Shown here in pieces: positions 3,374 through 34,923 of a DNA stretch of 36,038 bases; the stretch's first letter is position 1; the number at the start of each line of letters is the position of its first letter. A program made the position numbers and the translations under genes. The notes beneath the pieces are model-generated. The model was not told where the DNA came from, searched no databases, and worked only from the letters and a program-made list of their open reading frames with translations. Source of the stretch: Prevotellaceae bacterium (lineage in GTDB: Bacteria; Bacteroidota; Bacteroidia; Bacteroidales; Bacteroidaceae); contig JAUNOM010000025.1 in the NCBI GenBank assembly GCA_030531085.1, positions 1 through 36,038 on the forward strand. The letters run 5' to 3'.

Positions 3374-3521
3374 TGGTTATATGGTTGTGGGTTGTGGGTT
3401 TTAGGTTTTAGGCTGTTGGTTATTTGTTGTAGGTCTTTTTAAGATTGCAACCAATAACCAACACGCCCCACGACCTAAAGACCTACAACCCACAACCTAC
3501 AACCCACAACCAAGAAAAGAC
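3374..3521 (+). repeat. Word-repeat tract A (G/T arm then A/C arm)
   Basis: This gap between the SRPBCC gene and argH consists of repeated G/T-rich words (GGTTGTGGG, TTTTAGG, TTGTTGTAGG) up to about 3437. It then has a short unique loop and the complementary A/C-rich words (CCTACAACCC, ACAACC) from about 3451 to 3513. The arms are imperfect complements and could form a long hairpin. No gene was seen. The same vocabulary recurs in at least seven other gaps of this window. Confidence 0.8.
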
Positions 3522-5570: not shown

Positions 5571-5647
5571 CTGATGGAAAAGAATTGGGGGGCGTATCAT
5601 GCGGAACGCCCTCCGACACATTTTACAAAGTGTCAGAAAAGTCCCTC

Positions 5648-6019
5648 TTTTTCTGACACTTTGATTTTCGGCACTCGCGGAGAATGGCGGTGTTTGAAAA
5701 TTATTTCCCTACGGACGCGTACAGCGCATTCTCCGCATTTTCGCTAATCCGCTAACATTCTTACAGTTACGATTTTTAGCGTTTTAAAATACACATAAAA
5801 GCGCCCTAAAAGCATAGATATTACATAGTAATCTGATAGAGATTACTGTGTGAAAGGATAGCTTTAGCAGTGTAATCTCTATCAAATAGCACCCCAATCA
5901 CTATCTTTTTACTCTCGGACCGGCATCCAACGGCCGCAAAAGGGATGAAAAACGTGCCTCGCGCTCTCTAAAACGCAAGGCGGAGCCGACAGTCTCGAAA
6001 AAGCAAAGTGTCACAAAAA
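5648..6019 (+). repeat. 372-bp inverted-repeat element, copy 1
   Basis: Non-coding block whose ends are imperfect ~24-bp terminal inverted repeats (TTTTTCTGACACTTTG at 5648 and its counterpart CAAAGTGTCACAAAAA ending at 6019). Copy 2 at 20763-21134 is in opposite orientation and about 95% identical by eye, with mostly transition differences. Similarity extends more weakly to about 5590-6048. Nested inverted repeats include GCGGAGAATG/CATTCTCCGC, GATAGAGATTAC (5835-5846) with GTAATCTCTATC (5872-5883), and the competing hairpin AGTAATCT-GATAG-AGATTACT at 5828-5847. The left end also forms a 15-bp hairpin (5626-5640 with 5649-5663). No convincing ORF. It resembles a non-autonomous (MITE-like) element or a dispersed structured-RNA locus. 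Confidence 0.85.
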
Positions 6020-6099
6020 CGGGGCAAAAAGTAACGTTTTGTCAAAAACGGACATTTGACATCACAGCATGAAAACACACGATTTACGGTGTCTGAAAA

Positions 6100-6443: not shown

Positions 6444-6574
6444 CCTCATAACTACTTTTCAACTAAAATTTATCATAATATTGATTTGTAGCAGTCAAAA
6501 ACAAGGCTATTTGACCATTATTGCACGAGAAAAGATACAAAATCCACGGTCTTTCACATATTGGCAGCGATTTT

Positions 6575-6655
6575 TTGGGGTTGTTGGTTGTAGGTTTTAG
6601 GTTGTGGGGAAGCACTTTTTGGTTTTTGGGTTGTAGGTTGTTGGTTGTAGGTAAA
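6575..6655 (+). repeat. Word-repeat tract C
   Basis: G/T-rich words (GGTTGTTGGTTGTAGG, TTTTAGGTTGTGGGG, TTTTTGGGTTGTAGG) with no A/C partner arm nearby. The rest of the gap 6463-6752 holds no gene I can support, apart from a short open C-terminus-like fragment at 6463-6575 on the - strand. Confidence 0.7.
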
Positions 6656-6752
6656 TGCCAATGACATATTAAAGCAAGTGTCTTTATGGTTAATTTTTCT
6701 TAACAGTACAATAAAATCATTACTGCACATTATGAATTCAGAAACTTTTTTG

Positions 6753-7212: not shown

Positions 7213-7743
7213 ATGGATGAGCAGGCACTGATAGAGAGACTGAAGGACGGGAAGACGCGGCGGAAGGCGTTCGCCGTGCTTGTGGAACAGTACAGTGAGA
7301 CGCTGTACTGGACGATAAGGCATATAGTGGGCAGACACGAGGATGCCGACGATGCGCTGCAGAACACTTTTATTAAAGTATGGAACAAACTTGACGGGTT
7401 CAGAGGCGACGCCAAACTAAGCACCTGGCTGCACCGTGTCGCAGTGAACGAGGCAATAGACCTTTTAAGGAGAGAGAGGAGATACACTGACAGCCAGGCG
7501 GATGTCAGCGAGACGTGTCATGCCTTCTCGGACGAGTACTTTGACGGTGACGAGGCGGAACAGCTGCTGCGGGATGCCATGGAGACACTGCCGGAGGCGC
7601 AACGCGCCGTGTTTGCGCTGAAATACTACGAGGACAGGCCATACAAGGAGATAAGTGAGATACTCGGCACATCGGAGGGAGGACTGAAGGCCAACTACCA
7701 TCATGCGGTGGAGAAGATAAAGAAATTCCTGAAAGGAAGGTAG
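7213..7743 (+). CDS. ECF-type RNA polymerase sigma factor
   Basis: A 176-residue sigma-70 family protein with only regions 2 and 4. Region 2 spans about residues 25-90 (HEDADDALQNTFIKVWNKLDGFRG, then LSTWLHRVAVNEAIDLLRRERR). Region 4 is about 117-170 (LPEAQRAVFALKYYEDRPYKEISEILGTSEG). It should direct RNA polymerase to a specific regulon under control of the downstream membrane protein. The ATG at 7213 starts MDEQALIERLKDG, the usual family start. Downstream is a 350-bp repeat tract before the putative anti-sigma gene. Confidence 0.9.
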   Translation: MDEQALIERLKDGKTRRKAFAVLVEQYSETLYWTIRHIVGRHEDADDALQNTFIKVWNKLDGFRGDAKLSTWLHRVAVNEAIDLLRRERRYTDSQADVSETCHAFSDEYFDGDEAEQLLRDAMETLPEAQRAVFALKYYEDRPYKEISEILGTSEGGLKANYHHAVEKIKKFLKGR

Positions 7744-8000
7744 TTGTTTAGTTGTTTGGTGGTTTTGTGGTTTGGTTGTTTGGTTGAGTGCTTAGCTGGT
7801 TGGTTGATTGATGAAGTGTGTTGCGGTTGGTTTGAAACCAAAAACTCATCACTCATAATTCACAACTAAAAACTAAAAGCGCTCATCACTCATAATTCAC
7901 AACTAAAAACAAAAGCAACTCATCCCTCATAATTCATAACTCATAATTAAGTTTGTGCAACCAAACAACTAAAAACAAAACAACAAAAAAGCACGACGCA
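7741..8000 (+). repeat. Word-repeat tract D with a 29-bp direct repeat
   Basis: A G/T-rich arm (TTGTTTAGTTGTTTGGTGG and similar, to about 7835) is followed by an A/C-rich arm (7836-8000). Inside the second arm a 29-bp unit beginning CTCATCACTCATAATTC is repeated exactly at 7845-7873 and 7882-7910, and a degraded third unit follows to about 7950. The tract separates the sigma factor from its likely anti-sigma gene. 8001-8097 shows nothing more that I can name. Confidence 0.8.
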
Positions 8001-18504: not shown

Positions 18505-18885
18505 ATAAAAAAGCGGGATGTCTGGCCTCTGCCCGTTTACTGCCTTAGGTCCTGAGAAAACCCCGAAAAATAAACAAACAGTCTTGACACCCACGCCGTT
18601 GGCACAATATAAGTATACCCATAAAGTGTGCATGAAGGCCTTTGACCCTCCGCACACTAACGGGCTACGTATAATACCTTCCCGTAGCATCTACCCTGCA
18701 TTGTTCTTGATTTTTCGTATCTTTTTGAATTTCTCAGGTTCAAAGCAATCAAAAACAAAGCGTTAGCAAACACTTCTCTAATATGTAGGCCACCTCCCTA
18801 TCCATATCGCGCAAGGTATAGGAACCTGCTGAGATACCGCCCCAGTCCCCTTGAAAAGAGGTTTCTACGGCATGGGTGTAGCGAT
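18505..18885 (-). ncRNA. Candidate structured RNA or long leader
   Basis: A - strand promoter box TACCTTTG (18895-18888) begins a 380-nt non-coding stretch that ends in a T-rich run (18512-18505). Inside, GTAG-AA-ACCTC (18868-18858) pairs with GAGGT-GGC-CTAC (18796-18785), enclosing smaller stems (GGTAT/ATACC, CCTAT/ATAGG). Further on, GCTACG pairs with CGTAGC and GTGTGC (18657-18652) with GCACAC (18631-18626). No known RNA family is recognised. It could be a free RNA, the leader of the downstream lipoprotein operon, or part of a dispersed repeat, since one frame through its 5' half stays open for about 49 codons. Confidence 0.4.
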
Positions 18886-18979
18886 TGCAAAGGTACAGAA
18901 AAATTTTGTAACTGACACAATTTCCGCCGCTTTTTTTATCCTTTACGCATAAATTTGCATTACAGGGACAATCCTGCGC

Positions 18980-19004
18980 ATATTTTTCCTGCCAGATAGA
19001 AGAA
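18980..19004 (+). repeat. 25-bp direct repeat, left copy
   Basis: The unit beginning ATATTTTTCCTGCCAGATAG is identical to 20516-20540 and lies upstream of the AAA ATPase promoter. A looser relative (TTTTCCTGCCCAATCCAAG) occurs at about 20707. The pair could mark the ends of an inserted segment. Confidence 0.8.
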
Positions 19005-19075
19005 AGGTGTCACTCTTCAAACACACTCAAAACAAAAAGTCAAGACATATAATTTACAGACCATTGTATATATAG

Positions 19076-19199: not shown

Positions 19200-20474
19200 A
19201 TGGAATATAAGCATAGAATAGCGGATCAACTACTTCGGGAAAAATTAGAGGCTATGGGAGCAGTAGTAATAGAAGGTCCCAAGGCTTGCGGCAAAACGAC
19301 CACTGCAGAACAGCAGGCTAAGAGCGTTATTTATATAGATGATCCTACAAAACAGGGTCAATACAAACAAATGGCGCAAACAAACATAAGTTTCTTGCTT
19401 GAAGGAGAAACGCCACGCCTTATTGACGAGTGGCAAGAAATTCCCCAATTCTGGGATGCCATACGGTTTGAGGTGGATCACAGGGATGAAGATGGACAAT
19501 TCATGCTTACTGGTTCTGCCGTTCCTACAGACGCTGAAAGCATCCATCATACTGGAACAGGAAGATATGGATGGCTTACCATGCGTCCTATGAGCTTGTG
19601 GGAGTCAGGAGAATCCACAGGTGAAATACGTTTGTCAGACTTATTTCTTGCTCCAAATAAAATAGGAGCCTCGAATAAATTAACATTGTCAACACTTGCA
19701 TTTGTCATTTGTCGTGGAGGATGGCCTAAGGCACTTAAGAAGAAAACAGAAAAGGCGGCACTGTTACAAGCGACGGAATACTATAAAGCCATTACCAATG
19801 TCGATATATCACGTGTTGACAATATAAAACGGAATGCAGAAAGAGCAAAAAGAATTATGCGCTCTTATGCCAGGCATCAAGGCTCACAAGCAAGTATAGC
19901 GACAATTCTTGCTGACATATCAACTAACGAGCCGGCAGTTGTCAGCGACGAAACAGTAGGCTCATACCTCACTGCCCTACGGAAAATATTTGTAATTGAG
20001 GACATGCCTGCATGGAATCCCAACCTGAGAAGCAAAACTGCCATTCGCACATCAGACACAAGATATTATGTAGACCCATCAGTTGGCGTTGCTGCTCTCG
20101 GCCTTGGGCCGAATGATTTGATTAACGATTTAAACACATTCGGACTGTTTTTTGAAACGATGTGCATTCGGGACCTGCGGGTATATGCCGATGCATTGGA
20201 TGGTTCCGTTTATCATTATAGAGACAAGAACGGTCTGGAATGCGATGCTGTGGTGCATCTGCATAACGGATCGTATGGCCTTATAGAAATAAAGCTGGGT
20301 GGAGAGAAATTAATTGATGATGGAGCTAAAACACTAACTGCACTTGCAAACATCATAGACACTTCCAAAATGAAAGCACCTGCATTCTGTATGGTGCTGA
20401 CAGGTGTTGGTAATTTCGCCTACAAACGGACAGATGGAATATATGTGGTGCCTATTGGATGTCTGAAGAATTAA
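19200..20474 (+). CDS. AAA ATPase with DUF4143 domain
   Basis: A 424-residue ATPase of the family often found as a mobile or accessory gene in Bacteroidetes. Walker A GPKACGKTT is at residues 26-34, Walker B RLIDEWQ at 73-79, and the sensor-like FMLTGSA at 101-107. The C-terminal DUF4143 part has the nuclease-like strand order (YHYRDKNGLECDAVVHLHNG ... YGLIEIKLGG), resembling a PD-(D/E)XK core with Asp, Glu and Lys present. Its biological role is unknown. It is visibly more AT-rich than its neighbours, is flanked by 25-bp direct repeats and is followed by a 372-bp element, all suggesting transfer. Confidence 0.85.
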   Translation: MEYKHRIADQLLREKLEAMGAVVIEGPKACGKTTTAEQQAKSVIYIDDPTKQGQYKQMAQTNISFLLEGETPRLIDEWQEIPQFWDAIRFEVDHRDEDGQFMLTGSAVPTDAESIHHTGTGRYGWLTMRPMSLWESGESTGEIRLSDLFLAPNKIGASNKLTLSTLAFVICRGGWPKALKKKTEKAALLQATEYYKAITNVDISRVDNIKRNAERAKRIMRSYARHQGSQASIATILADISTNEPAVVSDETVGSYLTALRKIFVIEDMPAWNPNLRSKTAIRTSDTRYYVDPSVGVAALGLGPNDLINDLNTFGLFFETMCIRDLRVYADALDGSVYHYRDKNGLECDAVVHLHNGSYGLIEIKLGGEKLIDDGAKTLTALANIIDTSKMKAPAFCMVLTGVGNFAYKRTDGIYVVPIGCLKN

Positions 20475-20515: not shown

Positions 20516-20540
20516 ATATTTTTCCTGCCAGATAGAAGAA
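20516..20540 (+). repeat. 25-bp direct repeat, right copy
   Basis: Exact match to 18980-19004, 42 bp after the ATPase stop codon. Further down, a nested hairpin (AATTCTC at 20571, TGCACTGA-AC-TCAGTGCA at 20601-20618, GAGAATT ending at 20630) may end the ATPase transcript. Confidence 0.8.
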
Positions 20541-20762
20541 TACACCGTTTTGAGAGAAAACACCTTTTAAAATTCTCTTTTTACAGAAAACCGCCAAAAA
20601 TGCACTGAACTCAGTGCACTTTGGAGAATTAGTCAGTGAATTTGTTGCTTACAATGCATTTCCGCCCACGCAGTAATTTGTCATGCTGTGAGTGTTCCGC
20701 GCACTGTTTTCCTGCCCAATCCAAGAAAAGGCCATTTTGACAAAACGTTACTTTTGGGGTCA

Positions 20763-21134
20763 TTTTTGTGACACTTTGCTTTTTCGAGACTGTCGGCCTC
20801 ACCTTGCGTTTTAGAGAGCGCGAGGCACGTTTTTCATCCCTTTTGCGGCCACTGGATGCCGGTCCGAGGGCGAAAAGATAGTGGTTGGGGCGCTATTTGA
20901 TAGAGATTACACTGCTAAAGCTATCCTTTCACTCAGTAATCTCTATCAGATTACTGTGTAATATCTATGCTTTTAGGGCGCTTTTATGTGTATTTTAAAA
21001 CGCCAAAAATTGTAACTGTAAGAATGTTAGCGGATTAGCGAAAACGCGGAGAATGCGCTGTACGCGTCCGTGGGGAAATAATTTTCAAACACCGCCATTC
21101 TCCGCGAGTGCCGAAAATCAAAGTGTCAGAAAAA
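20763..21134 (-). repeat. 372-bp inverted-repeat element, copy 2
   Basis: Reverse-oriented copy of 5648-6019, about 95% identical by eye and of identical length, with the same terminal inverted repeats and nested stems. Weaker similarity continues to about 20735 on the left (TTTTGACAAAACGTTAC) and 21195 on the right. An open frame on the - strand (21035-21274) crosses its right edge but looks fortuitous. Confidence 0.85.
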
Positions 21135-21338
21135 GAGGGGCTTTTCTGACACACCGTAAAAACAGGGCGTGTCCACAGAGGGGGCATCCGCATACGTGTC
21201 ATGATACGGGGATATGAAGAACCGCTGCCATAACACTCGCGTACATTATATAATATATAGGGAGCGTACCGCACTGGATGACATTGGCGGAAATTACTCT
21301 GTTACACCTACCATAAATTACAAAAACAGCCCCTTCAC

Positions 21339-21730: not shown

Positions 21731-21769
21731 GAGTCCCGCCACCGTTCCACGGCGGCGGGACTCTTTTTT
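21731..21769 (+). terminator. Strong intrinsic terminator of the micropeptide unit
   Basis: GAGTCCCGCC (21731-21740) pairs with GGCGGGACTC (21754-21763), with further inner pairing, and is followed by six T. Confidence 0.9.
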
Positions 21770-22065
21770 GATGGTTGTTTGTTGTTGGTTTGGGGTTGTT
21801 GGTCAGCCTCGCTATTGGTTGGGGGTTGGGGGTTTTAGGTCGTTGGTCGGCAGCTTTATTGGTTTTAGGTCGGAGGTTTGGGGTTGTTGGTCAGCCTCGT
21901 TTGGATGGCAAAGCTAACGGATTGCTATAAAACCAATAACATAAAACCATTAGCCCACAACCAAATCCCCTCCGACCTACAACCTAAAACCCATACCCCA
22001 CAACCAATAGCGCTGCCGACCCACAACCTAAACAACCAAACAACTAAACAACCAAATTCCCTCCT
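21770..22065 (+). repeat. Word-repeat tract E, long inverted repeat
   Basis: The largest tract. G/T-rich words (GGTTTGGGGTTGTTGGTCAG, CTATTGGTTGGGGG, TTTTAGGTCGTTGGTCGG) run to about 21910. A 40-nt centre follows, then the A/C-rich complement (CCGACCTACAACCTAAAACC, CCACAACCAATAG, CTGCCGACC) to 22060. Order and variants of words correspond between arms, so the arms are related by inversion. It separates the micropeptide terminator from the secDF promoter. Confidence 0.8.
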
Positions 22066-25314: not shown

Positions 25315-25372
25315 ATGAGGCACGGCTGTCACCACTTATGGTGCTGGCCGTGCCTCATGGCGTTATAGGTTT
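25315..25372 (+). terminator. secDF terminator
   Basis: ATGAGGCACGGC (25315-25326) pairs perfectly with GCCGTGCCTCAT (25347-25358), with an inner CACCA/TGGTG stem, and a T-run follows. Confidence 0.85.
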
Positions 25373-25567
25373 TTTGGTTGTTGGTTTTGGGTTTTGGGTT
25401 GAAGGTCTTTTGGGGGTTGGTTGAAGGTTTGGGGTTGGAGGTTGAAGGTCTTTGGGGACTTTAGGCAGGAGGTCTTAGATTGAAGTTTTTGGAGGATTGG
25501 AAGTCTATCAACCAAATAACCAAACAACTAAACAACTAAAAGACCAAACAACCAATCAACTAAACAA
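25373..25567 (+). repeat. Word-repeat tract F
   Basis: G/T-rich words (GGTTGAAGGTCTTTTGGGGG and variants) run to about 25505, then a shorter A/C-rich arm (CAACCAAATAACCAAACAAC) follows. It fills the gap between convergent secDF and the acyltransferase fusion. Confidence 0.75.
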
Positions 25568-28054
25568 CTAACCCGCCATACCGTCCACGATAGCCTGCCT
25601 CACACGCAGCGCGAAGTCATCGTAGCTCTCATCCTCCCGCGCCGTCATTGGCGGCAGATACTGCAACGTTATCCTCGACGGCTTGTAGAGACGCGAGCCG
25701 CGCGGCAATGCCTCATACGCCCCACTGACGCTGACAGGAAGCACAGGCACGCCAAGTTCCTTGCTGAGTATGGCGAAAGTCTTCTTGAACACCCCTACTC
25801 CACCATTGCGAGAGCGTGTCCCCTCGGGGAAGATGATGATGTTACGCCCCTGTTTCAGCACCTCTGCCAGCTTCAGTATGGAGTTCTTCAGATTGCGGCG
25901 CTCCATTATTATGATGTTGTGACGGCTTGCCATATAGCGCAGCAGGGGGTTGTTAACATGATCCTCCGTGGCGTAGAAGTAACAGCTGTCTATCACATTG
26001 CCCGGCACTCCCGACATCACTATGGCGCCGTCAAGATAGCTCTGGTGGTTAGGAGCCATGATAAACTGCCCGTTTGCGGGTATGTTCTCAACGCCCTTGA
26101 CAAGCAGGCGGTTATAAAGTCTGAACATCAAGCGGAACGAAGCGGCCATTGCCCTGTGTGACAGGCCCGCCACTGGCAGCCGCAGATGGCCCGACTCCTC
26201 GTTCAGCAGCCTGTGCCAGTCTATGTGCTCCACCTCACAACGGGTGGAACAGGAGGCCACGCGGTCGGCCAGTTCCTGCACATTGCGGTAGGCGGACATA
26301 GTGTCCGCGCTGACGGTCACGCCGAATGTCTGCTCAATGAAGCCCTGCAGCCCCACCATGTCAAGCGAGTCAAAGGCAAGGTCTGTCTCAAGATGGCTGT
26401 CAGGACGCACCGTCACCTTCTTCTCCCCCTCTATGTAGTTCCTCAATATCTCATACTCCTCCGTATGCTGTGCCTCTACGGGCACCTCGTCAGCGTGCTG
26501 TTCCGCCTCACCCTCATCGCACAGCTCCTGCAACTTGTACCGCTTCAGCTTGTCGAGCTTGGTACGGGGCAGCTCACCACGGTACACAAAGACGCTCATC
26601 AGCTTCTTATAGTTGCTGACAGTGAGGTTGTACGGCTCCACGACATCACGCTTCAGCACCTCTTCCACCTCACGGTCAGACAGTCCGGCCGCCCACTTCT
26701 CCTGCGGAACTATTATGACGCGGAGCAGGTCACCGTACTGAATGACGGCGCACTCCTTCACCTTGTCGTCATATTTCTCTATCTTATACTCTATCTCGTT
26801 TGGCTGAACGTTCTTGCCATTGGACAGTACTATGATCTCCTTTGAGCGCCCAGTGATGTAGACACGTCCCTCATTGTCAAACCGTGCGAGGTCTCCCGTG
26901 TGCAGAAAGCCGTCACTGTCTATCACCTGCGCCGTCTCCTCGGGACGGTTATAGTATCCCAGCATAAGGTTAGGGCCCTTCACGTACAGCTCACCATCCA
27001 CTATCTTGCACTGCATTGTGGGCAGGGGCTTGCCTGCGCAGCCCGGTATTATGTCGTCAGGACGGGTGAATGTAATCATCGGCGCGGTCTCCGTCATGCC
27101 GTATCCCTCCAGCACATCGAGTCCAAGGGCACGCAGTCCCTCGCCAATCTCGCGGTCCAGAGCCGCTCCTCCGCTCACACAGTAGTCTATATGTCCGCCC
27201 ATCTTGTTGTGAACAGACCTGAACACCAGGCGTGACAGTCCCCTGCTGCCCACCGTGCGGCACAGCACAAACAGCGCGCGGGCCGCCATGCTGGCGTCAA
27301 TCTTCTTCTTTATGCCGGCATACAGCGTCTGCCACAGGCGCGGCACGCCTATCATTATGGCCACCTTGCCGCGGCAAAGGGTGTCCATGATGTCGGGACC
27401 GGACATGGAAGGGCATATAGCCACACCGCCGCCCACAAGGATTGGCGCCACCACACTGCCCATAAGCGGCAGCACATGATGCAGTGGCAGCAGCACCATG
27501 GTACGGCGTTGCTCATCGAAGATGGGCACATCACGCGCCACACTGACTATGTTTGCCATCAGATTACGGTAAGACAGCATCACACCCTTGGGCGAGCCCG
27601 TGGTGCCGGAGGTGTAGATAATGAGCGAGCACTCATCCTCCAGCTCCGTCATATTGTCTATGCCGGGCCACTTCTCCAGCTCCTCAACGGGCACAGTCTC
27701 ATAGTCATCAACAATGAACACGTCAGTATCCACACCGGCCTCGGCCACCGCCCTGCGCGCCAGAGGTTCCTTCTCCGCCGATACCCACAGGCAGTCCGGC
27801 CGGCAGTCACGCAGGATATAGACAAGGTCTGACACCGTTGACGACGCATCGACAGGCACAGCGATGCCCTGGTTCAACCAGATGGAGAAGAAGGCGTAAA
27901 TCCATCCCTCCCTGTTCTCGCAGAATATTATGGACTTGCTGCCCTTCCCGGCCGGGGTATGGCGCGCATACAGACTGATGCGCCCGAACATCTCACTATA
28001 ACTTACCTCACGCTCTGCGGTCACTATCGCCGCCTTATGGAAATTACGTATCAT
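25568..28054 (-). CDS. Acyl-activating enzyme / acyl carrier / acyltransferase fusion (Aas-like)
   Basis: An 828-residue three-part protein. Residues 1 to about 515 are an AMP-forming acyl ligase (YTSGTTGSPKG 147-157, GYGMTETAP 318-325, HTGDLA 385-390, RTKLDKLKR near 497-505). About 535-605 is a carrier domain with the phosphopantetheine serine Ser563 (AFDSLD). About 630-828 is a PlsC-type acyltransferase with NHQSYLD (669-675) and FPEGTRSR (742-749). It probably activates a free fatty acid, loads it on its own carrier and passes it to a lysophospholipid or glycerol phosphate. E. coli Aas lacks the internal carrier. Start at MIRNFHKAA is set by the promoter at 28100-28107. Confidence 0.88.
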   Translation of the reverse strand: MIRNFHKAAIVTAEREVSYSEMFGRISLYARHTPAGKGSKSIIFCENREGWIYAFFSIWLNQGIAVPVDASSTVSDLVYILRDCRPDCLWVSAEKEPLARRAVAEAGVDTDVFIVDDYETVPVEELEKWPGIDNMTELEDECSLIIYTSGTTGSPKGVMLSYRNLMANIVSVARDVPIFDEQRRTMVLLPLHHVLPLMGSVVAPILVGGGVAICPSMSGPDIMDTLCRGKVAIMIGVPRLWQTLYAGIKKKIDASMAARALFVLCRTVGSRGLSRLVFRSVHNKMGGHIDYCVSGGAALDREIGEGLRALGLDVLEGYGMTETAPMITFTRPDDIIPGCAGKPLPTMQCKIVDGELYVKGPNLMLGYYNRPEETAQVIDSDGFLHTGDLARFDNEGRVYITGRSKEIIVLSNGKNVQPNEIEYKIEKYDDKVKECAVIQYGDLLRVIIVPQEKWAAGLSDREVEEVLKRDVVEPYNLTVSNYKKLMSVFVYRGELPRTKLDKLKRYKLQELCDEGEAEQHADEVPVEAQHTEEYEILRNYIEGEKKVTVRPDSHLETDLAFDSLDMVGLQGFIEQTFGVTVSADTMSAYRNVQELADRVASCSTRCEVEHIDWHRLLNEESGHLRLPVAGLSHRAMAASFRLMFRLYNRLLVKGVENIPANGQFIMAPNHQSYLDGAIVMSGVPGNVIDSCYFYATEDHVNNPLLRYMASRHNIIIMERRNLKNSILKLAEVLKQGRNIIIFPEGTRSRNGGVGVFKKTFAILSKELGVPVLPVSVSGAYEALPRGSRLYKPSRITLQYLPPMTAREDESYDDFALRVRQAIVDGMAG

Positions 28055-28191: not shown

Positions 28192-28249
28192 CACACAGGT
28201 TAGGCGTTCTGCCGCAGGTTGGACAGCTAAACTGGTGTCTGGTTTCGGG

Positions 28250-28490
28250 CTGACAGCTGGGTTGGTTTTAGGTTGTGGGTTTGGGGTTGTGGGTCTATTA
28301 CCATCCAACCAAACAAAGACTATCAACCAAAACACTAAACAACTAAACCACAAAACAACGAAACAGCCTATCAACTAAATCACAAAACAACTAAAAGAAC
28401 AAACAACTAACCAGCAACCTGCCAAGCAAATAAACACCCAAACAACAAAAAAAAAAAACAACTAATACACTAACCAACAAAACAACCAAA
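28250..28490 (+). repeat. Word-repeat tract G in a probable 5' leader
   Basis: A short G/T arm (GGTTTTAGGTTGTGGGTTTG) is followed by a long A/C-rich run (AACAACTAAACC, AACCAAACAAC and an A10-plus stretch near 28448-28460) up to the start codon. Confidence 0.75.
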
Positions 28491-28492
28491 CC

Positions 28493-29926: not shown

Positions 29927-29965
29927 CACTACTTCTACCAGCGGACAATGGATATAAGTACCGCT

Positions 29966-30040
29966 GCAAAAGCTATCAGATTACCTTGTAAAAGCATAGA
30001 GATTAACCAGTAAAAGCTATCAGATTACAAGGTAATTTGA
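29966..30040 (+). repeat. Hairpin with words shared with the 372-bp element; possible terminator
   Basis: ATTACCTTGTAA (29980-29991) and TTACAAGGTAAT (30025-30036) form a perfect 12-bp stem between convergent genes. The loop and flanks carry AAAGCTATCAGATTAC twice-over style words and AAAAGCATAGAGATTA, which match AAAAGCATAGATATTA and AATCTGATAG in the core of the 372-bp element. Confidence 0.65.
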
Positions 30041-30046
30041 TTATTA

Positions 30047-31096
30047 TTATTCCTCCTTATGTTGCAAACGGAAAAATTCCTTCTGCTGTTCTATCTCGCG
30101 GCGCAATTCCTCTTCAGTAGGCATATAAGTCATATATTTGGCCGCAAAGAGTTGGTCACTATCATTCAATACAGAATAGCGTGCAATAGTGTTGTCGGTA
30201 TCCGTACAAAGTAAGACACCTATAGTGGGCTGGTCGTCTTCACCTTTTACAAGATCATCATACATTCGTACATACATATCCAGTTGGCCTATGTCCTGAT
30301 GAGTAAGGCGGTGCGTCTTCAACTCGAAGATTACAAAGCGTTTCATCTTGAAATTGTAAAACACGAGGTCTATGTAGAAGTCGGAGGTCTGTGTTACAAT
30401 ATGCTGTTGACGTTCTACGAAAGCAAAACCGCGTCCCAATTCCAGGATGAATTTTTCAAGGTTGTCTATTAAGGCTTGTTCCAATTCAGACTCGGAATAA
30501 GAGGAATTGCGGCGAAATCCCATAAACTCGGCCACCACGGGGTTCTTGATATACTCCAGTGGGCTTTTGTCTGTCGTAGTTTGAAGGGCTTCCGCGTTGG
30601 CTGGAAGTTGAGCGGCTAAACGTCGCTCAAAATACTGGGACGAGATGTTTCGATCGAGTTCGCGTACACTCCACATACCTTTTGCAGCATTCTCTAAATA
30701 CCACCATCTGGCTTCTGTACTTGTGACCGACAAGACACGGCGCACATGAGACCACTCAAGATTGTGAACACACGTGTTCACTTTTTCTGCATCAGGAAAA
30801 AGTAGATAGAACTTTCTGTAATAGTCAAGATTTCGTTTACTATAACTCCTGCCATAAATAGGAATCAGGTATTCCGCGAGATTTCTCATAAGCCTCGTGC
30901 CATAAGATGCTCTCTTCTGTCCCCCTTGTTCTTCTTCTACAATGCGCCTACCAACATTCCAATACGTGAAAATAGCTATCTGTCCTACGTTAGCATAAGC
31001 CTGCTGACGCCCCCGCTCGATGATAGAACAGACATCGTGAAACAGCACCTTCTCTTGCTGTTCCACCCTTATTTCTATATTTTTGTTCTCTTCCAT
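30047..31096 (-). CDS. YhcG/DUF1016 family PD-(D/E)XK nuclease-like protein
   Basis: A 349-residue protein. The N-terminal DUF1016 helical domain covers about residues 15-165 (ANVGQIAIFTYWNVGRRIVEEEQGG, WSHVRRVLSV). The C-terminal nuclease fold has DFYIDLVFYN (Asp243), FVIFELKTH (Glu258, Lys260) and QDIGQLDMYV (Gln271 and Tyr275), so the catalytic set looks intact. The family is widespread as an accessory gene and is often linked to restriction or mobile loci; its function is not settled. It is more AT-rich than its neighbours, suggesting transfer. Start MEENKNIEIRVEQQ. Confidence 0.88.
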   Translation of the reverse strand: MEENKNIEIRVEQQEKVLFHDVCSIIERGRQQAYANVGQIAIFTYWNVGRRIVEEEQGGQKRASYGTRLMRNLAEYLIPIYGRSYSKRNLDYYRKFYLLFPDAEKVNTCVHNLEWSHVRRVLSVTSTEARWWYLENAAKGMWSVRELDRNISSQYFERRLAAQLPANAEALQTTTDKSPLEYIKNPVVAEFMGFRRNSSYSESELEQALIDNLEKFILELGRGFAFVERQQHIVTQTSDFYIDLVFYNFKMKRFVIFELKTHRLTHQDIGQLDMYVRMYDDLVKGEDDQPTIGVLLCTDTDNTIARYSVLNDSDQLFAAKYMTYMPTEEELRREIEQQKEFFRLQHKEE

Positions 31097-31149: not shown

Positions 31150-31223
31150 CAGTTTAGTTATGAGTTGTGAATGATGAGTTATGAGTTTCAACCAAACCAC
31201 TAAAGAACCAAACAACAAAACAA
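31150..31223 (+). repeat. Word-repeat tract H
   Basis: AGTTATGAGTTGTGAATGATGAG words (shared with tracts B and D) are followed by an A/C-rich arm (CAACCAAACCACTAAAG). The tract lies between the nuclease start and the AraC gene's 3' end. Confidence 0.7.
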
Positions 31224-32114
31224 CTAAACCACCATCCTGTACTGCGTCGGAGTCACTCCAGTATGCCGCTTGAAGAAACGCACAAAATGCTGCGGGTACT
31301 CGAAACCAAGACGTGCGGACACCTGTGTGACCGTAAGCGACAGGTCATTGAGCAGCTCCTTGGAGTAAGTCAGCATACGGTCGGAGATAAAGGACTGTGC
31401 CGTGACGCCCGTCTCCGTCTTCACCAGCTCTCCGAAATACCCCGGTGTCAGGCAGCACTTGTCCGCAAAGTAGGCCACGGTAGGCACACCATGGCGCTGA
31501 GCGTCATTAGCCAGATAGTCGTGCAGCATCTCCTCCAGGCGCATCACAACCGTATGGTTTATCTCCTCACGCATGACGAACTGCCGTTCGTAAAAGCGCA
31601 GGCAGTAGCCTAACAGCACCTCGATGTTGGCCACTATGAGCTGGCGCGAGTGGCGGTCTATGGCGTGCTGCATCTCCTGCTGTATTATGGCGAGCACGGA
31701 GCGCATCACCTCCACCTCGGCAGCGGAGAGGTGCAGAGCCTCATTGCTGCTGTATGAGAAGAAGCCATACTTGGAGATGTTACGTCCAAGGGATGTGCGG
31801 AGCAGCAGGTCGGGATGGAACGCTATGCAGGTCCATCGCGGCTTCACGCCATCGTCCGCCGGCTCCACCGTCACTGTCTGCCCGGGCGCGAAGGAGGTGA
31901 CGGTCATCTCCTCGAAGTCGTACTTGGTGCGGCCGTATGACAGCTTGCAGCTCTTGGTCTCCTTCAGAAACAGAGCATAGATACCATAGCGGTAGATGCC
32001 GCTGCGCACGGGACGGTCCCAGTCCATGCGTGCCACGGAGACAAGAGGATGGACTGTCTCGAAGCCGTTGAGGTCATTAAACTGCTGTATGGTGTCATAA
32101 ACATATTCCTTCAT
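31224..32114 (-). CDS. AraC-family transcriptional regulator
   Basis: A 296-residue regulator. The C-terminal pair of helix-turn-helix units covers about residues 190-293 (YFADKCCLTPGYFGELVKTETG and VTQVSARLGFEYPQHFVRFFKRHTGVTPTQYR, the classic AraC signature). The N-terminal part is a cupin-like sensor domain (MTVTSFAPGQTVTVEP). Start MKEYVYDTIQQFND at 32114 is chosen because the longer frame runs upstream of a probable promoter box (ACTTTGCGC region near 32140). The effector and targets are unknown. The gap 32115-32239 holds only this promoter region. Confidence 0.9.
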   Translation of the reverse strand: MKEYVYDTIQQFNDLNGFETVHPLVSVARMDWDRPVRSGIYRYGIYALFLKETKSCKLSYGRTKYDFEEMTVTSFAPGQTVTVEPADDGVKPRWTCIAFHPDLLLRTSLGRNISKYGFFSYSSNEALHLSAAEVEVMRSVLAIIQQEMQHAIDRHSRQLIVANIEVLLGYCLRFYERQFVMREEINHTVVMRLEEMLHDYLANDAQRHGVPTVAYFADKCCLTPGYFGELVKTETGVTAQSFISDRMLTYSKELLNDLSLTVTQVSARLGFEYPQHFVRFFKRHTGVTPTQYRMVV

Positions 32115-34470: not shown

Positions 34471-34590
34471 TAATAATGTGTAAGCAACACTTTATTAAGA
34501 AAAAGAGGGTCGGATAATAATTCTATATCAAATTTATGCATAAAATGTAAAAAAATTAGCGGAAATTATATTTTTTACAAAAATTTTATG

Positions 34591-34598
34591 TACTTTTG
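34591..34598 (+). promoter_or_regulatory. Promoter -7 box of the beta-barrel gene
   Basis: TACTTTTG fits TAnnTTTG and predicts a transcript beginning near 34605, more than 300 nt before the coding start at 34924. 34471-34590 is AT-rich with no gene. Confidence 0.6.
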
Positions 34599-34604
34599 CA
34601 ATCG

Positions 34605-34923
34605 CAACCATGCACAAACTGTGTGTTGCAGACATACTTAGAAGGCGTTTTCGCTTCATTCTTGTTGGAGAAACCTAGGAAATTTCAGTCAACAGAATAC
34701 AGAATGAATGTGAGGGATGCTCTCTTTGGTTCGTATCTTCATGTAAACTATGAATACAGCCAAAGTGGGGTCTTTTTTCACTTATCTGTATTCATAGGCT
34801 TTCCTAGGGCCACTCCAACAGGATATGTGAAAAAGTTAGGCTCCACTTTCTTTGTTCTGTCTTTTTCATTCAACATCTTATTAAAACGTATCAGTGAGCC
34901 TTTGATACAGGGAGAACAATAAA
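34605..34923 (+). promoter_or_regulatory. Long structured 5' leader with competing stems
   Basis: Three nested pairings are visible in order: CCTAGGAAA (34674-34682) with TTTCCTAGG (34800-34808), GAATACAGA (34695-34703) with TCTGTATTC (34785-34793), and CTTTGG (34724-34729) with CCAAAG (34760-34765). A perfect alternative 12-bp stem CTATGAATACAG (34748-34759) with CTGTATTCATAG (34786-34797) excludes the second and third. AAAGTGG (34762) can also pair with CCACTTT (34843). This looks like a two-state regulatory leader. A 108-codon open frame crosses it, but without start context. Confidence 0.5.

Follow-up and report, generated by a model that had tools for sequence, protein, structure and literature searches.

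We report here that a 36,038-nucleotide stretch of a Prevotellaceae bacterium genome (contig JAUNOM010000025.1 of assembly GCA_030531085.1; hereafter the window) holds two members of a repeat family that probably represents non-autonomous, MITE-like elements carrying an operator-like array, with a putative mobility and a putative binding protein. At its centre this mobile-looking element bears a helically phased row of palindromes, whose sequence varies between species while the 21-22-bp frame stays constant. If a protein does bind these arrays, they would provide a system for studying how dispersed sites and the protein that reads them change jointly.

The first-pass annotation had described a non-coding 372-bp unit at 5648-6019, with an inverted copy at 20763-21134. 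These positions are correct: the two stretches are 95.7% identical over 372 bp with zero gaps, and no open reading frame (ORF) of at least 80 amino acids lies over either window copy. Their likeness extends to 427 nt (5621-6047 against 20735-21161, 94% identity) and stops sharply beyond, so that the real unit is about 425 bp and longer than first called. The terminal inverted repeat of about 24 bp is present (20 of 24 positions matched by eye) but does not mark the true end of the element, each of its arms being the inner half of one terminal hairpin. The features of the window, in window coordinates, are as follows.

5622-6047, plus strand: element copy 1 with its two terminal hairpins, about 425 bp in all (first called as 5648-6019).
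5626-5663, plus strand: left terminal hairpin of copy 1, from the predicted fold and pairing in 37 copies.
5677-5736, plus strand: leader stem-loop, in which 5677-5687 pairs with 5726-5736 and encloses a conserved TTTnAAAATTATTT block.
5806-5912, plus strand: array of copy 1, five 19-bp near-palindromes at 5806, 5828, 5850, 5872 and 5894, each with at most 2 mismatches.
5962-5993, plus strand: conserved tail block TCTCtAnAAtGCaAgGTgA.G.CGAca, from conserved columns; part of covariance model R1 (see below).
6004-6041, plus strand: right terminal hairpin of copy 1, from pairing over 40 sequences.
20735-21161, minus strand: element copy 2, inverted, with the identities to copy 1 given above.
20892-20976, minus strand: array of copy 2, four units with at most 2 mismatches; a more degenerate fifth lies at 20870-20888.
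29966-30028 (region 29952-30036), plus strand: stand-alone array of three units without element ends, from pattern matches.

The original count of two copies was far too low. A DNA search of the source genome (2,374,037 bp in 61 contigs, 81% complete) gave at least 76 matches, a lower bound with 40 of 105 candidates scored, and these were grouped into 40 places. Thirty-nine of them are elements and the other, L035, is a central array only; one element, L004, has no recognisable right end, and a model of the tail adds one full-length match beyond the BLAST set (C6:45533-45623). A local duplication of one locus, the fallback that had been named in case neither further copies nor stem covariation turned up, is ruled out by 39 places with differing flanks, and the terminal hairpins do covary, as described below. 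As far as the ORF calls can tell, the copies are mainly intergenic: an ORF of at least 80 amino acids overlaps 19 of the 39 by more than 60 bp, and the other 20 have none. Eight of the overlapping ORFs were scanned against Pfam, yielding no transposase and, for seven, no match; the single match was to an HTH gene that, in its predicted 5' part, shares at most 67 bp with element L008. Judged by the same crude calls, the nearest genes are codirectional for 22 copies, convergent for nine, divergent for seven and undetermined for one.

When the flanks were stacked, conservation stopped on the left where A-rich sequence, TTTTAC-like in several copies, precedes TCAAAG, and on the right after GTTTTGTCAAAAT. 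The best flank-only geometry for a target-site duplication of at least 4 bp, the lengths covered by this test (shorter duplications could still exist), fits just 2 of the 34 copies with both flanks usable. No clean empty site was found: in genome G021 the gene preceding copy 1 is conserved with no element after it, but the next gene differs, so that the far flank is not orthologous. The family shares with MITEs its short, multi-copy, sharp-ended form, the lack of an internal transposase (none was noticed between the ends of any copy) and the terminal inverted repeats, the inner arms of the two hairpins being inverted copies of one another. In function it would resemble a MITE with an added operator array, but the lack of any target-site duplication in the test above keeps us from classing it as one; we place it with minisatellite-bearing elements.

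From left to right, the element comprises a terminal hairpin, leader stem-loop, linker, array, variable spacer, tail block and second terminal hairpin. Over 34 complete copies (the 39 without L004, L014, L029, L030 and L036) the mean majority fraction is highest in the left hairpin (0.87), followed by leader and tail (both 0.79), right hairpin (0.77), array (0.68), linkers (0.59-0.60) and spacer (0.56). Their pairwise identity has a median of 0.61 and a minimum of 0.50. Twenty-two of them measure 423-427 bp and ten 445-447 bp, with one copy each of 382 and 436 bp, the main length steps being about one array unit up or two down. Four close comparisons, three of which have common members, show 26, 28, 35 and 46 substitutions and no gap; less close pairs show few gaps, the 231 pairs of the 423-427-bp class having a median of 126 substitutions and 11 gap events. 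Be these indels real or alignment noise, the net length hardly changes. The differences between close copies are transition-rich and of many kinds, which rules out base-specific hypermutation.

Several subgroups can be recognised in the source genome. TGTAAG-type cores occur at both ends of four copies (L010, L012, L029 and L031), and the three of this type present in our tree form a single clade (support 92 of 100). In seven copies (L005, L007, L021, L026, L027, L032 and L034) the inner arm of the right end has GTAAG and the left end GTGTCA, so left and right ends are not always matched. By eye, a different tandem of about 21 bp (GTTAGATTTTTTCCTGCGGAC-like) replaces the palindromes at the centre of L014, L030 and L036, and the palindrome array is therefore not essential.

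Covariation was found at both ends of the element. In the left hairpin (37 copies) 91.5% of cells are paired and two-sided changes occur in 8 of 19 pairs. The leader stem by itself has 82% of cells paired and two-sided changes in 2 of 11 pairs. Taken together, these two structures reach a covariation score of 0.107, where shuffling gives 0.071 and sliding no more than 0.043. For the right hairpin (40 sequences), with 76% of cells paired and two-sided changes in 7 of 16 pairs, the score is 0.151; shuffling gives 0.083 and sliding 0.047 or less. Since the shuffles ignore relatedness, we take this covariation of the terminal hairpins as support rather than proof. The compensatory changes that had been proposed as a check on the stems are thus seen in the terminal hairpins, but not in the central stems to which the proposal had referred.

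The array is highly regular. Its units in copy 1 are spaced exactly 22 bp, and the unit pattern has 22 matches in the window at up to 2 mismatches (2.6 expected) and 227 exact matches in the source genome, where a reversed control has 0. Twelve array columns are invariant across the 22 copies of 423-427 bp. Eight of these twelve fall on two 22-bp combs, A then T, in steps of 12, 10, 12 and 10 (window positions 5831, 5843, 5853, 5865, 5875, 5887, 5897 and 5909), a fit that 0 of 5000 random placements equalled, and ten fall on two 11-bp combs. Such a comb is the trace to be expected if a dimeric protein contacted the DNA along a single helical face, which may be how it arose, and the layout as a whole resembles a set of docking sites of a DNA-binding protein more than it does a folded RNA. 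A CRISPR array can be ruled out, the units being just 3 bp apart with no unique spacers of similar length.

Arrays also occur freely, without the element; they are numerous among those read and mostly have 3-5 units. In the window, the stand-alone array directly follows the stop codon of a minus-strand gene for a DUF1016/YhcG nuclease (30047-31096). Seven of ten genes adjoining free arrays had a Pfam match, with no family in common, and the gene neighbours include Bacteroidales-type genes (TonB-dependent receptor, Por secretion tail), which, together with the great size of the genus, would fit Prevotella in its broad sense. Four contigs of the source genome (L076, L077, L082 and L083) start inside a 22-bp array or within 35 bases of one, so arrays may break assemblies and hence be undercounted. 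Units with like halves are rarer than random pairing predicts in free arrays of the source genome (1 of 48 against 12.8; distinct units, 1 of 22 against 4.3), in its elements (2 of 33 against 5.6) and in genome G373 (2 of 64 against 10.3; distinct units, 2 of 40 against 5.6), although these counts are weak, as the copies are non-independent and like halves are visible by eye in several other genomes.

Of the two readings first offered, a mobile non-autonomous element fits better, given the dispersed copies, sharp ends, covarying hairpin ends and relatives elsewhere, with the movement itself presumed. The terminal hairpins would be the ends acted on by a putative enzyme supplied in trans, the leader and tail would serve as conserved accessory parts, and the centre would be a phased array of operator-like near-palindromes. 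Its putative half-sites would recur every 11 bp or so in alternating orientation, so that a dimeric protein could sit cooperatively on one helix face over about 110 bp. Past transposition, the trans-acting enzyme, the binding protein and any influence on nearby genes or on the nucleoid are inferences. Rows of sites at steps of about 10-11 or 20 bp, with cooperative binding on one face, are also a feature of the plasmid centromere arrays to which ParR-type proteins bind; unlike these, the present copies are dispersed by the tens over a chromosome, and their binding protein is putative. A more specific proposal is that a putative chromosomal protein, such as a nucleoid or segregation factor whose specificity shifts between species, docks cooperatively on the 22-bp arrays as its species-specific sites, and that the elements are vehicles seeding these sites, with the length and phase of the copies kept by selection after insertion. 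We regard this extension as speculative and on the whole unlikely.

The array might instead be a slipping, homogenised minisatellite within a passive selfish element, with no bound protein and with a mobilising enzyme that needs the length. Indeed, length changes in one-unit steps, three copies have a different tandem, unit sequences differ between species and unit number varies widely (0-333 pattern matches in 299 genomes of the genus). Yet the comb is invariant despite about 40% of sites differing between copies, and the end branches are long (median 0.19 changes per column) while net length has scarcely drifted. Passive slippage is therefore possible but, in our judgement, rather doubtful.

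A dispersed structured non-coding RNA that switches between alternative central stems, the other reading first offered, seems quite improbable. RNA of copy 1 does fold better than its shuffles (z -5.0, 0 of 100), the two alternative central hairpins do exist in that copy, and compensatory changes are present in the terminal stems and, weakly, in the leader stem. In a comparison of the 22 copies of 423-427 bp with 500 shuffles, however, the alternative hairpins are not conserved as pairs: the stem of GATAGAGATTAC with GTAATCTCTATC is 63.3% paired against 62.7% shuffled (215 of 500 as high), that of AGTAATCT with AGATTACT 60.2% against 59.6% (212 of 500), and the unit palindromes 58.8% against 59.9% (464 of 500). 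The central stems do beat slid versions in cells paired, which is usual for structures derived from one member sequence. Nor is folding energy clearly better than that of controls with randomly flipped units, averaging -29.7 against -27.5 (sd 2.1; 9 of 60 controls as low) in free arrays of the source genome (n=16) and -29.5 against -27.9 (sd 1.7; 10 of 60) in its element arrays (n=14), while G373 arrays (n=19) fold worse than their controls (-31.2 against -35.0; 59 of 60 as low). With central pairing at the shuffle level and no clear gain in folding, the alternative stems are not kept as pairs; they seem to be a side effect of near-palindromes lined up in both orientations. A family defined by such stems is further opposed by the Rfam comparison, with no match at the gathering threshold and a single chance-level one (E 0.8), and by copies occurring in all gene orientations.

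That the ends are bidirectional terminators, and that the family spreads since intergenic insertions insulate genes, is highly improbable: A/T tracts border the end hairpins on both sides and one terminator-like site lies inside copy 1 (5956-5981, minus strand; 1 found, 0.5 expected), but the end hairpins of that copy went unreported in a scan requiring at least 3 G-C pairs and a T-run, the gene pairs around the copies may be codirectional (22), convergent (9) or divergent (7), in counts that carry no background expectation, and the central array is left unexplained.

The MITE-like reading also draws on relatives in other genomes, for which a search had been suggested and which we found in several species of the genus. 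A plain DNA search with one element of the source genome hit 8 of the 150 genomes from the genus and 4 of the 201 from the family, the source genome included each time; the matches were strong in the source genome only, and repeated only there and in G001. Elements in G001, which contributed to the R1 training set, have a diverged leader and, by eye, three to about six units. The unit pattern matched in 164 of 299 genus genomes (source genome included, range 0-333), with the highest counts after the source genome in G373 (333), G366 (49), G001 (36), G395 (26) and G449 (19). The remaining genus genomes mostly have 0-3 matches, near control level, and 294 other genomes of the order have 0-8, with controls at 0-4. 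Among the unit matches listed for the source genome, G373 and G395, neighbours are frequently 22 bp apart.

Covariance model R1 covers the tail only (37 sequences from the source genome and 3 from G001) and has no array sequence inside. Run within the genus, it matched at E of at most 0.01 in 32 of 299 genomes, including the source genome, and three pairs of R1 ends in opposite orientation lie 416-417 bp apart (one in G008, two in G379). Upstream of the best R1 match in each of 29 other genomes, tested with 200 shuffles, the best period is 21-22 bp at 12 loci and another at 17; this full set supersedes a hand-picked first sample, in which 9 of 13 loci had a 21-22-bp period. Nine of the 12 are clear, with at most 2 of 200 shuffles as good (L134-L137, L141-L143, L157 and L160), whereas L138 has 4 of 200 and L149 and L159 are at chance level. 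Among the ten R1 loci with E below 5e-5 (L134-L143), eight have a best period of 21-22 bp, the exceptions being L139 and L140. With another period at 17 of the 29 loci and 3 of the 12 unclear, most weak R1 matches are probably chance. Outside the source genome, the exact leader pattern had 21 matches in scattered taxa of the genome contig collection, where about 20 are expected by chance, and the plasmid and phage records searched gave no match.

Candidates for the putative enzyme were also considered. Profiles PF01609, PF02371 and PF01797 (IS4/5-, IS110- and Y1-type transposases) have no match in the source genome (81% complete), which leaves mobilisation by a RAYT/IS200-type, IS4/5 or IS110 enzyme of its own unsupported. 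Y1_Tnp matches are no commoner in the other genomes with arrays or elements (4 of 16) than in those without (5 of 8), which speaks against this family. Hairpin-only matches in G426 (15 loci), considered as possible ends of an autonomous element, gave no lead: such a hairpin is present in 2 of the 9 loci checked, L209 and L210, each alone.

In the titles and abstracts reached by a literature search, we found no description of this repeat family. As far as the description consulted goes, the nearest known kind is BrickBuilt, a MITE of Porphyromonas gingivalis with a leader, a 23-nt tandem and a tail in 19 intergenic copies (PMC4596501), though its sequence is unlike ours. Both are, on that description, short intergenic repeats of Bacteroidales in which leader and tail flank a tandem array of variable number, with units that are nearly equal in length (23 nt in BrickBuilt, 22 bp in ours), no more than tens of copies in a genome, and additional arrays lacking leader or tail. 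According to the same account, BrickBuilt ends are 12-nt, GAGACC-type and IS5-like, whereas here they are long covarying hairpins with the by-eye consensus AAAATCAAAGTGTCA / GTTTTGTCAAAAT, which is not GAGACC-type; our units, unlike those it describes, are near-palindromes with a fixed comb and have relatives in several species. The 23-nt BrickBuilt unit AGAYCATARTATCCTCTCRTRTG has 0 matches in the window at up to 3 mismatches and 0 exact matches in 233 loci. REP/BIME and REPIN sequences, as outlined in PMC3733652, are likewise high-copy extragenic palindromes found in both unit orientations and in arrays. By that outline, our units differ in beginning with GYAA without the unpaired GTAG or CGTC tag, in their strict 22-bp period, and in lying within a larger hairpin-ended element or short free arrays; in contrast to REP/REPIN with RAYT as outlined there, no Y1_Tnp gene was found in the source genome at 81% completeness.

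Other repeats were seen in the window. An 80-nt inverted repeat pair lies at 18878-18957 and 34529-34608, the two arms being 80% alike. A TTTTTCCTGCCnGATnGAAGAA-like motif occurs three times (18984-19022, 20520-20558 and 20707-20745) around an AAA_14/DUF4143 ATPase gene at 19200-20474; its exact pattern is found in 1 of 233 loci, that locus itself lying within the window. Finally, strings of 7-8-bp units (such as GGTTGTA and AACCAAAC) are present in many gene gaps, frequently as inverted pairs, including those at 3375-3511, 6573-6670, 7741-7990, 21767-22056, 25361-25571, 28249-28491 and 31153-31236.
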